This document shows positions 11,783 to 61,688 of a stretch of 64,000 nt of DNA, piece by piece. Position 1 is the first letter of the stretch, and each line of letters begins with the position of its first letter. A model generated the notes under the pieces. The model had not been told where the DNA came from. It was given only the letters and a program-made list of their open reading frames with translations, and searched no databases. The translations under genes and the position numbers were made by a program. Source of the stretch: Chlorobiaceae bacterium (GTDB taxonomy: Bacteria; Bacteroidota; Chlorobiia; Chlorobiales; Chlorobiaceae); NCBI GenBank assembly GCA_013334755.1, contig JAAXWX010000002.1, positions 1-64,000 of the forward strand, written 5' to 3'.

Positions 11783-11899
11783 ACCGGCAGGGTTCATCAC
11801 TGGCGCTTGTTTTGTGATTTTTTGTTTCAAAATCTTGCAGAATTTTTCTCTTTTATATTGAATCGTTTGGGAAAAATCATTACACTGCAGTCAGTTCTT

Positions 11900-12150
11900 T
11901 TTTTCTGGTGCCGGGCTTGAATGGTCCGGATAATAGGGAATTACGTGAAATTCGTATACTGTGCCCGCAACTGTATGACGGTTTGCTGGCAGGGATGCAG
12001 ACAGCTCTGTTTGTTTTTCCTGTGCAGCAGGATCAAGCCACTTCGTTAACCGATTTTTACCGCCGGAAAAACGGGGGAAGGTTTTTTCCACATTGAATCC
12101 TGCTTGATTGAGCAGGAAGCCGTTCAAAGTCAGGAGACCTGCCGGAATGA
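11900..12150 (+). promoter_or_regulatory. Cobalamin (AdoCbl) riboswitch
   Basis: AATAGGGAA at 11932-11940, ACTGTGCCCGCAACTGTA, AAGCCACTTCG, and the B12 box AAGTCAGGAGACCTGCC at about 12127-12143, all on the + strand. Confidence 0.9.
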
Positions 12151-12402
12151 TATTGCCTTATGGCTTCGGGAAAAAAGTCAGGTGATATGCCTTGCATTTA
12201 TTTACAGGAAAATCTGAAAAAAAAGAGAGAAATCGCTCTGAATTTGTCGTGCATAGCCAACTTTTTTGATAAATGTTATATTGAACATTATCGGAAGAAA
12301 TGAAGCTCTGCGGAGTATGCCTGTTGCTGTTTTATGCTGTCAAGTTTTTATTTAATAATAATTTATAGTTTAATCCCCTAATACTGATACTGGAGAATCT
12401 CT

Positions 12403-15400
12403 ATGAAAATTTCCCGTCTGTTCACCAGTCCCGGCGAAAATGTTTACGACAGGTTTGAATACACGACAAGGGCCTCGGTACTTCGCAATCCTGACGGTTC
12501 AAAAGTGTTTGAAATGACCGATATCGAAGTGCCGAAACATTGGTCGCAGGTTGCAGCCGATATTCTGGCCCAGAAATATTTTCGTAAAACCGGTGTTCCC
12601 CAGCGTAATGAACGGGGCGAGATTCTTGTTGACAGCGACGGTCTTCCGGTGACCGGCAGTGAGCATTCGATCAAGGAGGTTGTTCATCGTATGGCGGGCT
12701 GCTGGAGAGCCTGGGGTGAAAATAACCGTTATTTTGATACTCCTGATGATGCCCAGGCCTTTTATGATGAGGTGGCCTTCATGATTCTCAAACAGATGGG
12801 TGCTCCGAATTCGCCGCAATGGTTCAATACCGGGCTTAATTTTGCCTATGGTACGACCGGTCCGGCACAGGGTCATTATCATGTTGATCCCGAAACACAG
12901 AAAGTCAGGGAGTCAGAGGATGCATATAGCAGACCCCAGGCTCATGCCTGTTTTATCCAGTCAGTCAGCGACGATCTGGTCAACGAAGGGGGGATTTTCG
13001 ATCTGGCAATTCGTGAGGCAAGGGTGTTCAAGTTTGGTAGTGGTTCAGGCACCAACTACTCTAATCTCCGTTCTGGTGGGGAGAAGCTGAGTGGCGGCGG
13101 AAGCTCTTCGGGTCTCATGAGTTTTCTGAAAATTTTTGATTCGGCGGCGGGCGCCATAAAATCAGGCGGAACAACACGCCGGGCAGCCAAGATGGTGATC
13201 GTTGATATCGATCATCCTGATGTTGAAAAATTTATTGAGTGGAAAGCGAAAGAAGAGGATAAGGTGGCATCGCTGGTAGCCGGTTCAAGAATCTGTTCCC
13301 GATTCCTTCAGGCCATTGTTGAAGAGGCTCTTCTCAACGGCGTGGACCGTCTGCAGAATCCAAAGCTGCACAAGCTGATACAGAATGCACTCAGCAGGGC
13401 AGTGCCGATGAGCTACATCGTGAGGGTACTCGCTTTGGTTGAACAGGGGTACACCTCGCTTGATTTTGAAGAGTATAACTCCAATTATGAGTCGGAAGCC
13501 TACCAGACTGTCGGTGGTCAGAACTCCAACAATACCGTTCGTGTTACCAACGAGTTCATGAAGGCGGTGGAAAATGACGATATCTGGCAGCTTCGTGAGC
13601 GGACTACCGGCCGGAATGCCAAGGCTGTCAGGGCCCGTGATCTGTGGGAGAAAATCCTTCTCAGCGCATGGAAATGCGCCGATCCCGGTCTTCAGTTCGA
13701 TACCACCATCAATGAGTGGCATACCTGTCCGAAGAGCGGAAGAATCAATGCAAGCAATCCCTGTTCGGAGTATATGTTCCTTGACGATACCGCCTGCAAT
13801 CTTGCCAGCCTCAACCTTATCCATTTTATTGATGAGGCTTCGGGTAAAATAAAGGTGAAGGAACTGCAGCATGCTTCATGCTTGTGGACCATCGTGCTGG
13901 AAATATCAGTCCTGATGGCTCATTTTCCTTCAAAGGATATTGCACGGCTGAGTTACGAGTTCAGAACGCTTGGACTTGGTTTTGCCAATCTCGGTACGGT
14001 TCTGATGGTTCTCGGGATTCCGTATGACTCACCAAAAGCGCTTGCCCTTGCCGGAGCGATCTCTGCCGTGATGACTGGTCAGGCCTATGTGACGTCGGCG
14101 GATATGGCCCATGATCTCGGAGCTTTCAGCGGTTATGCTGTCAATAGTGAGGATATGCTGCGCGTTATCCGTAACCATCGCCGGGCTGCACGGAATATGT
14201 CGGAGGAGGAGTATGAGGGATTGACAGTCAAGCCACGCGGGATTGATTCGGAGTACTGCCCGGGTGAGCTCTTCGAGGCAGCAGGAAAGGTCTGGGATGA
14301 AGCACTGAAGAAGGGTAAAAAGTATGGATTCCGTAATGCACAGGTCAGTGTTATTGCCCCTACCGGTACGATTGGTCTGGTTATGGATTGTGATACCACC
14401 GGAATAGAACCGGAGTTTGCCATTGTTAAATTCAAGAAGCTTGCGGGAGGGGGCTATTTCAAGATTGTCAACCAGTCGGTGCATAAAGCGCTTGAGCGTC
14501 TTGGATATACCAGTGCACAAATCGATGATATCGAGCACTACTGCAAGGGTCACGGCACACTTGCCGGTTCTCCCACTATCAACCGGCAGTGGCTGAAAAG
14601 CCGTGGTTTCACTGACGACAAGATTGAAGTTGTCGAGTCGCAGCTTGAAACCGTCTTTGATATTCGTTTTGCTTTCAACAAGTGGATTCTGGGCGAGGAT
14701 TTCTGTGCAGCGCTTGGCTTTACCGATGATCAGCTCGAAGATCCGGATTTTGACATGCTTCAGGCTCTTGGCGCGACAGCACAAGATGCGGAGCAGGCCA
14801 ATGATTATGTTTGCGGTACCATGACGATCGAGGGCGCTCCCCATCTGAAACTTGAGCATCTGGCGGTGTTTGATTGTGCCAGCACCTGCGGGCGCAAAGG
14901 GCTCCGCTATATCAAGCATATGGCTCATGTCCGGATGATGTCGTCCGTTCAGCCTTTTATTTCAGGTGCGATATCAAAAACAGTCAATATGCCGGGCAGT
15001 GCGACGACCGTCGAAATCGGTGAAGTGTTTCAGGCGGCATGGCTGCAGATGGTCAAGGCCATCACGGTTTACCGCGATGGATCGAAACTTTCCCAGCCCC
15101 TTAATATTTCAAGCTTTCAGGACCTTGATGAGGTTATCATGCTTGGAACGGAAGAGAACCTTGATGAAACCAAGGGACCAAAAGAGGTACAGGAGCGTAT
15201 TGTCGAGCGTGTTTATCACCGCTCCGAGCGCAGGATGCTCCCGAAACGGAGGAAGGGCTATATCCGCGAAGCGTATGTGGGCGGCCACAAGGTCTTTCTG
15301 AGAACAGGGGAGTATGAAGATGGCGCGCTTGGTGAAATCTTTATCGACATGTACAAGGAGGGCGCTTCATTCAAGGGGCTGCTGAACTGTTTTGCCGTGC

Positions 15401-15828
15401 TTGCATCCAAGGCGCTGCAGTATGGCATGCCGCTCGAAGAGCTTGTCGACAGTTTTACCTTTACCCGCTTCGAGCCGGCTGGTGCCGTTCAGGGGCACAA
15501 TGCCATCAAGAATTCCACTTCCATCCTCGATTATGTCTTTCGCTCAATCGGGTACGACTACCTCGGCCGCAAGGATTTTGTGCATGTCAAGGCGGTTGAC
15601 GAAGTGCTGGAGAGCAATGGCGATAACGGCCATACCCAGGTTGTGGAGCCTTCACTCGCCGTTCATCTGGAGGCCGACTCTTCAGTTACCCGAAAAAGCC
15701 AGGTTTACCAGGCAAAGGTTCAGGGCTATACCGGAGAACAGTGTGAAAACTGCGGTTCCATGCGTGTCAAACAGAATGGCACCTGCAAGGTATGCGACGA
15801 TTGCGGTATGACCACGGGCTGTTCGTGA
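12403..15828 (+). CDS. nrdJ: Adenosylcobalamin-dependent (class II) ribonucleoside-diphosphate reductase
   Basis: 1141 aa; GAPNSPQWFNTGLNF, NPCSEYMFLDDTACNLASLNL, VSVIAPTGTIGLVMDCDTTGIEPEFA, C-terminal CENCGSMRVKQNGTCKVCDDCGMTTGCS. Confidence 0.95.
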   Translation: MKISRLFTSPGENVYDRFEYTTRASVLRNPDGSKVFEMTDIEVPKHWSQVAADILAQKYFRKTGVPQRNERGEILVDSDGLPVTGSEHSIKEVVHRMAGCWRAWGENNRYFDTPDDAQAFYDEVAFMILKQMGAPNSPQWFNTGLNFAYGTTGPAQGHYHVDPETQKVRESEDAYSRPQAHACFIQSVSDDLVNEGGIFDLAIREARVFKFGSGSGTNYSNLRSGGEKLSGGGSSSGLMSFLKIFDSAAGAIKSGGTTRRAAKMVIVDIDHPDVEKFIEWKAKEEDKVASLVAGSRICSRFLQAIVEEALLNGVDRLQNPKLHKLIQNALSRAVPMSYIVRVLALVEQGYTSLDFEEYNSNYESEAYQTVGGQNSNNTVRVTNEFMKAVENDDIWQLRERTTGRNAKAVRARDLWEKILLSAWKCADPGLQFDTTINEWHTCPKSGRINASNPCSEYMFLDDTACNLASLNLIHFIDEASGKIKVKELQHASCLWTIVLEISVLMAHFPSKDIARLSYEFRTLGLGFANLGTVLMVLGIPYDSPKALALAGAISAVMTGQAYVTSADMAHDLGAFSGYAVNSEDMLRVIRNHRRAARNMSEEEYEGLTVKPRGIDSEYCPGELFEAAGKVWDEALKKGKKYGFRNAQVSVIAPTGTIGLVMDCDTTGIEPEFAIVKFKKLAGGGYFKIVNQSVHKALERLGYTSAQIDDIEHYCKGHGTLAGSPTINRQWLKSRGFTDDKIEVVESQLETVFDIRFAFNKWILGEDFCAALGFTDDQLEDPDFDMLQALGATAQDAEQANDYVCGTMTIEGAPHLKLEHLAVFDCASTCGRKGLRYIKHMAHVRMMSSVQPFISGAISKTVNMPGSATTVEIGEVFQAAWLQMVKAITVYRDGSKLSQPLNISSFQDLDEVIMLGTEENLDETKGPKEVQERIVERVYHRSERRMLPKRRKGYIREAYVGGHKVFLRTGEYEDGALGEIFIDMYKEGASFKGLLNCFAVLASKALQYGMPLEELVDSFTFTRFEPAGAVQGHNAIKNSTSILDYVFRSIGYDYLGRKDFVHVKAVDEVLESNGDNGHTQVVEPSLAVHLEADSSVTRKSQVYQAKVQGYTGEQCENCGSMRVKQNGTCKVCDDCGMTTGCS

Positions 15829-38819: not shown

Positions 38820-41433
<2,614 letters not shown>

Positions 41434-60906: not shown

Positions 60907-61307
60907 GGGGATGACAGGCTTTCGACAGGGCAGGTGTAAGATGGAGTTGCACTCCGAGTTTCAGCATGGATGGACTCGTTAAAGAAGTCTATGCAAACAA
61001 TACATGCAGACGATTATTCGTATGCAATGGCTGCCTGATTAGCACAAGTTAATTAATCAGCCATCGTCCGTTGGGGGAGGCGCTTACTCTGAAGCCACCG
61101 GATGGCATAACCCGCGCTTGAGCTTCGGTTCGCGCAAGTAAGCTCCGACTGTTTTTGCCCGGAAAAACATGAGGGTGATACAAAGAGGGATAGTGAACCG
61201 AACTTTACAGGTGTAGCACCGGTTCATGAAACACTGAACACCTGAGATGAGTGTGGCAGCTTTATTGAGCAATGTTTTGGACGCGGGTTCGACTCCCGCC
61301 ATCTCCA
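60907..61307 (+). ncRNA. ssrA: Transfer-messenger RNA (tmRNA)
   Basis: GGGGATGACAGGCTTTCGACAGG 5' end; tag ORF GCA GAC GAT TAT TCG TAT GCA ATG GCT GCC TGA (61006-61038, ADDYSYAMAA); 3' TTCGACTCCCGCCATCTCCA pairing with the 5' GGGGATG. Confidence 0.96.
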
Positions 61308-61312
61308 CAAAT

Positions 61313-61424: not shown

Positions 61425-61575
61425 TGGTCATCAAGAAAGGCTGAGGGAATAGACCCTGTGAAGCCTTGACAACCGATTCCGTTTATGACGGGACACGGTG
61501 CCACATTCTACTTCTGCGCTCTATGCATCGGGTGTTTTTACCGGTGAAGCAGAAGAACGATGCGTGAAAAAGAGC
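61425..61575 (+). promoter_or_regulatory. SAM-I (S-box) riboswitch
   Basis: TCATCAAGAAAGGCTGAGGGAATAGACCCTGTGAAGCCTTGACAACC...ACGGTGCCACATTC; terminator follows, then a cystathionine gamma-synthase-like gene. Confidence 0.88.
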
Positions 61576-61647: not shown

Positions 61648-61688
61648 AAACCTCTTCCATGCTCGTCAGGGAAGAGGTTTTTTTATTT
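61648..61688 (+). terminator. Riboswitch expression-platform terminator
   Basis: AAACCTCTTCC-N11-GGAAGAGGTTT followed by TTTTATTTTG. Confidence 0.85.

Follow-up and report, generated by a model that had tools for sequence, protein, structure and literature searches.

B12 riboswitches are generally understood to repress genes for B12 uptake, for B12 synthesis or for B12-independent spare enzymes, and in Streptomyces the nrdABS genes for a B12-independent ribonucleotide reductase (RNR) are under a cobalamin riboswitch. Cobalamin riboswitches also control the B12-independent nrdDG in Desulfovibrio and Desulfuromonas (PMC545781) and both nrdAB and nrdDG in Propionibacterium acnes (PMC3848588), and the papers on these RNR riboswitches describe repression of B12-independent enzymes (PMC545781, PMC3848588). 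In Chlorobi, cobalamin riboswitches are described as mainly translational, and those of Candidatus Chlorobium antarcticum stand before btuB, btuF, metE, nrdD and one hypothetical gene, with nrdJ not listed (PMC8620254). The main text of Sun 2013 does not mention nrdJ; Rodionov 2003 or Vitreschak 2003 may mention an nrdJ riboswitch. Here we describe a locus in a 64-kb window (the whole stretch of DNA analysed) of a Chlorobiaceae genome that matters because an essential B12-using enzyme itself stands behind a B12 riboswitch, in a genome with no detected spare RNR and no detected NrdR.

The Rfam Cobalamin model (RF00174) matches the stretch upstream of nrdJ over its full length (model positions 1-189) at 65.7 bits, above the gathering score of 31.5 (E 5e-14), and both the B12 box and the conserved aptamer core GCCCGCAACTG (11963-11973) are present (Table 1). 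This confirms a class I cobalamin riboswitch, with AdoCbl as the predicted ligand, and bears out the first-pass annotation, which had described a well-formed AdoCbl riboswitch followed on the same strand only by nrdJ some 250 nt downstream; the measured distance from aptamer end to nrdJ ATG is 242 nt, with no gene between. An RF00174 search of the whole genome found no further cobalamin riboswitch. The window also holds two SAM riboswitches on the forward strand, each before ORFs that probably belong to the methionine pathway: one (38842-38950) is paired with ORFs at 38820/40361, the other (61425-61559), just above threshold, with an ORF at 61659. A tmRNA (60907-61310) with the tag ADDYSYAMAA lies on this strand too.

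Table 1. Features of the nrdJ leader and gene (positions in the window).
Feature	Position	Strand	Basis
P1, predicted promoter of the riboswitch transcript, TTGAAT - 17 nt - TACACT	11858..11886	+	pattern alignment
Cobalamin riboswitch aptamer, class I (AdoCbl type), with long peripheral insert	11889..12160	+	RF00174 match
B12 box AAGTCAGGAGACCTGCC	12127..12143	+	
Conserved P13-like hairpin directly 3' of aptamer core	12150..12188	+	leader alignment, fold
Imperfect inverted repeat GATAAATGTT-ATATTG-AACATTATC, overlapping P2	12268..12292	+	
P2, predicted downstream promoter, extended -10 TGTTATATTG (TGT-TATATT-G), expected start ~12289	12274..12283	+	promoter scan
nrdJ Shine-Dalgarno (SD) GGAG	12392..12395	+	sequence
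nrdJ, class II adenosylcobalamin-dependent RNR, 1141 aa, single-gene unit	12403..15828	+	family models

The earlier assignment of nrdJ to the B12-dependent class II RNRs is upheld by the family models NF005736 (1939.9 bits, cut-off 1737) and TIGR02504 (612 bits, cut-off 400), and the protein carries PF08471 (class II N-terminal), PF02867 and TSCPD domains. The candidate target of the riboswitch is thus B12-dependent and not a B12-independent isozyme. Searches of the source genome found no class I small subunit, no class III RNR and no second PF02867 gene, and class II NrdJ is the sole RNR detected; since the 2.11-Mb assembly is 97% complete, an RNR or riboswitch could have been overlooked, which the family-wide pattern makes unlikely. 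Among 61 sampled Chlorobiaceae genomes nrdJ was found in 58, and 50 of these 58 have no RNR other than class II. At its cut-off, NrdR, which usually acts as the repressor of RNR genes, was found in none of the 61, the source genome included. The corrin-ring synthesis gene CbiD is present in 14 of the 61 family genomes and was not found in the source genome, so that the organism probably takes up B12. Several relatives have longer NrdJ frames (1524-1558 aa in G017, G021, G025, G023, G028, G002, G004, G006 and others; 2014 aa in G087), in which PF02867 matches over a greater length or in separate parts; these frames are probably due to inteins in the RNR barrel domain, and the source nrdJ has none.

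The riboswitch-nrdJ arrangement is conserved. In the 61-genome sample, 30 readable leaders from both genera keep the same order at near-constant distance, and in an extended sample 33 of 73 Chlorobiaceae leaders carry the riboswitch upstream of nrdJ, again with near-constant spacing; these counts include relatives that are not independent, many of them metagenome assemblies. On the NrdJ tree the distribution requires about 10 changes, six of them forced by well-supported branches. Within g2, the Chlorobaculum-side group, all sampled sequences but one have the riboswitch, and this near-universal presence argues for a riboswitch that the ancestor of the family already had and that was later lost repeatedly; the sequences thus point to an arrangement that dates to the base of the Chlorobiaceae and has been lost several times since. 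The nearest outgroups (G087-G089) lack it before nrdJ. Leaders without the riboswitch remain unmatched by RF00174 even when E is set at 0.1, indicating that loss occurred by clean deletion and not by slow decay, and its frequency shows that the riboswitch is dispensable. In the lineage of Candidatus Chlorobium antarcticum (G031, L194) the riboswitch before nrdJ has been lost, in agreement with the published list (PMC8620254). We rejected a tie between riboswitch loss and class III nrdD, since among the eight nrdD genomes five lack the nrdJ riboswitch and three have it. Two oddities were seen in passing. One leader (L056, genome G052) is longer than the other riboswitch leaders owing to a palindromic, MITE-like insert of ~130 nt that lies within P13, downstream of the B12 box; a similar sequence sits 3' of nrdJ in L058, and such inserts may be a Chlorobiaceae repeat element. 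One MAG (G056) has two nrdJ starts, on contigs 57 (L140) and 193 (L073), only one of which has the riboswitch, reflecting either a strain mixture or a duplication.

Directly 3' of the aptamer core lies a conserved hairpin, which we take to be P13 with its loop L13. The CGGGA loop is invariant in 30/30 leaders, and 318 of 360 stem cells are paired across these leaders, whereas none of 2000 shuffles exceeded 296; the arms were picked for good pairing, which inflates both figures. The fold z-score is an unremarkable -0.49, and the support for P13 is its conservation. The loop bases CGGG (12167-12170) are complementary to CCCG in an aptamer loop (11964-11967), both present in all 30 leaders, as expected of the predicted kissing contact of cobalamin riboswitches. 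P13 ends at 12188, some 200 nt from the SD (12392) and start codon, and the leader lacks the trait of translational Chlorobi riboswitches in which a regulatory hairpin covers the SD. Folds of the 30 leaders gave no consistent pattern of pairing between SD and riboswitch. This, together with the distance, makes a translational mechanism unlikely, and we rejected control by long-range SD pairing; from the distance we infer a transcriptional platform, for which one would expect a terminator. The earlier remark that the gap has no clear terminator stands, as a simple and a looser scan of the 242-nt gap in the source both found no intrinsic terminator. Across leaders, no conserved intrinsic terminator was found between riboswitch and P2, and a weak, terminator-like GATC-type hairpin with a T-run occurs in a few Chlorobaculum leaders and is missing from most. 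Many relatives (e.g. L042, L078, L038) have a hairpin of changing sequence ~30-60 nt before the nrdJ SD, with arms such as GGTAAATC..GATTTACC or AAAGGGTAACTC..GAGTTGCCCTTT; it occurs whether or not the riboswitch is present and is weak in the source. A 22-aa ORF, noted earlier as a possible one in the gap, does exist mechanically but has no counterpart in five relatives, the closest included, and is not a gene; a role as leader peptide was accordingly rejected.

New here are two promoter-like elements, P1 on the 5' side of the aptamer and P2 between switch and gene, both predicted to be promoters on consensus and conservation. P2, like the findings of a single riboswitch and a single RNR in the genome, goes beyond the first-pass annotation. 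A sigma-70-like TTGNNN-16/17-TACNNT-like pattern with an A-tract spacer lies 5' of the aptamer in 30/30 aligned leaders (two with TAAACT at the -10 position); P1 falls under the 9/12 threshold of the promoter scan. Of the 73 leaders, 62 have the P2 element TATATT at -140 to -80 from the start codon; it is present in 32 of the 33 riboswitch leaders and in 30 of the 40 that lack a riboswitch, and lies ~117-131 nt before the ATG. Three leaders without riboswitch (L041, L045, L055) are near-identical to the source around P2 (CAACTTTTTTGATAAATGTTATATTG). Because P2 is kept with and without the riboswitch, it is part of nrdJ and not of the riboswitch. Natural variants separate the elements: Chlorobium sp. 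L227-S-6D (L059) has P1 and the riboswitch and lacks P2, a Chlorobiaceae MAG (L092) keeps P1 (TTGACC-17-TACTCT) and lacks both riboswitch and P2, and many leaders, L041, L045, L049, L055 and L073 among them, have P2 only. The P2-less and the P1-only variant suggest that P1 RNA also serves nrdJ. A separate nrdJ promoter, proposed in the first-pass annotation, is thus supported as an addition in the form of P2. The inverted repeat reported there is present and overlaps a stretch that is better taken as an extended -10 element. Its arms are not conserved in most relatives; it is possibly an operator or a start-site hairpin, and we rejected it as an NrdR box because NrdR is missing from the sampled genomes.

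Beyond the Chlorobiaceae, a genome of another Bacteroidota order (G110) has a 72-bit cobalamin riboswitch before a class II nrdJ (TIGR02504) on contig 51 (L286), and a 72% identical relative of this nrdJ in G181 has a B12 box upstream. No riboswitch was found in ~64 other class II leaders outside the family. The G110 leader ends in a G+C-rich hairpin and T5 directly before the SD, a terminator layout that looks like OFF-type control; folded as a whole, the leader stretch does no better than shuffled sequence (z -0.20). As a separate case, G110 supports an OFF wiring of class II RNRs. The G110 and G181 loci resemble those of Chlorobiaceae in having a cobalamin riboswitch immediately 5' of an AdoCbl-type RNR and differ in NrdJ subtype and in the placement of TSCPD, which for the riboswitch-linked nrdJ of G110 is on a separate second ORF. 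Unlike the source genome, G110 has a clear terminator before the SD and a second class II nrdJ, which lacks a riboswitch; a class I small subunit was not found in G110.

We propose, at about even confidence, that P1, together with the riboswitch, acts as an auxiliary promoter module, repressed by B12, atop P2, the B12-blind basal promoter of nrdJ. When AdoCbl is plentiful, it would bind the aptamer and the P13 hairpin would dock, the P1 transcript would be stopped or destabilised before nrdJ, and P2 alone would supply basal NrdJ. When AdoCbl is scarce, P1 RNA would read into nrdJ and yield extra apoenzyme, which would capture more of the scarce cofactor, so that holoenzyme, and hence dNTP supply, would be held up by mass action. 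We infer the OFF direction and the physiology of nrdJ control. That a B12 riboswitch precedes a B12-using RNR is a real puzzle, as the first-pass annotation had recognised, in that the wiring is conserved in the family; with basal output from P2, repression would never silence the only RNR, and the paradox of that first reading would be removed. The lack of a conserved intrinsic terminator and the frequent loss of the riboswitch count against this auxiliary-promoter model, as does the poor fit between the P13-to-SD distance and the mainly translational mode described for Chlorobi riboswitches (PMC8620254). If the model is confirmed, a cofactor-sensing RNA sets the amount of apoenzyme, and the two-promoter layout makes such wiring safe. 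We know of no regulator of dNTP supply previously described in green sulfur bacteria, so the riboswitch would, if confirmed, be the first.

The riboswitch could instead govern all or nearly all nrdJ mRNA and match NrdJ to AdoCbl by plain OFF feedback, with P2 a weak promoter or none. In L059, with P1 and riboswitch and no P2, nrdJ must depend on the switch, and in G110 the class II nrdJ is preceded by just one switch, of the terminator type; however, the P2 element recurs in most leaders of either kind, it would harm the cell if the cofactor strongly repressed the only RNR, which itself uses it, and we consider this account unlikely. An ON switch, also raised by the first-pass annotation, would suit the logic of a B12-dependent enzyme, with AdoCbl increasing nrdJ expression directly or else through termination of P1 transcripts that would otherwise occlude P2, and P1 lies upstream of P2 and points at it, as occlusion requires. 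P1 RNA itself carries nrdJ, though, and the P1-only L092 suggests that P1 can serve the gene; the 30 folds revealed no ON platform, and all characterised cobalamin riboswitches that we know of are OFF. Nothing found here speaks positively for the idea, the only independent case outside the Chlorobiaceae whose platform can be read looks OFF, and we rate an ON switch as quite unlikely. Its occlusion version, in which termination of P1 transcripts by AdoCbl would free P2 so that B12 raises nrdJ, we take to be very unlikely; if true, a terminator-type OFF aptamer would act as a gene-level ON switch, opposite in sense to the characterised cobalamin riboswitches.

Two further accounts detach the riboswitch from nrdJ. 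It might be a relic of a lost B12 gene, now idle for an nrdJ that uses P2, as its many losses and the relatives with P2 alone would allow. Over 17 species pairs, however, mean identity is 93% in the aptamer core and 68% at nrdJ third codon positions, which argues for purifying selection on the aptamer and against a decaying relic. Half-decayed copies are absent, riboswitch-less loci being devoid of detectable remnants, and the gap contains no gene in any relative compared, on which ground a lost transporter gene there was rejected. This selection, the empty gap and the near-constant spacing weaken the earlier suggestion that the riboswitch is left over from a lost transport gene, and a relic now seems very improbable. 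The riboswitch might also yield a short B12-controlled RNA that ends before P2 and acts elsewhere in the cell. From the layout, P1, aptamer and P13 form a complete unit that could end there, and P2 would make nrdJ independent of that unit. Speaking against such an RNA are the failure to find a conserved terminator, the P13-to-P2 region, which at 70% mean identity over the same 17 pairs is conserved no better than third codon positions, and variant L059 without P2; we regard it as extremely improbable.

Set beside the described RNR riboswitches, the nrdJ locus shares the aptamer family, the enzyme superfamily and the tying of RNR expression to B12. In those systems a B12-independent RNR is repressed in favour of the B12-dependent one and nrdJ has no riboswitch, whereas in the source genome it is the B12-dependent NrdJ that lies behind the riboswitch and an alternative RNR was not found. 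The other cobalamin riboswitches of Chlorobiaceae sit before btuB, metE and nrdD. They resemble the nrdJ type in having the RF00174 aptamer followed by a hairpin with, mostly, a CGGG-type loop at the same place. Their coding regions begin ~115-255 nt after the aptamer, and translational control has been described for them; the nrdJ type differs in the predicted second promoter lying between switch and gene and in a hairpin placed ~200 nt from the start codon.
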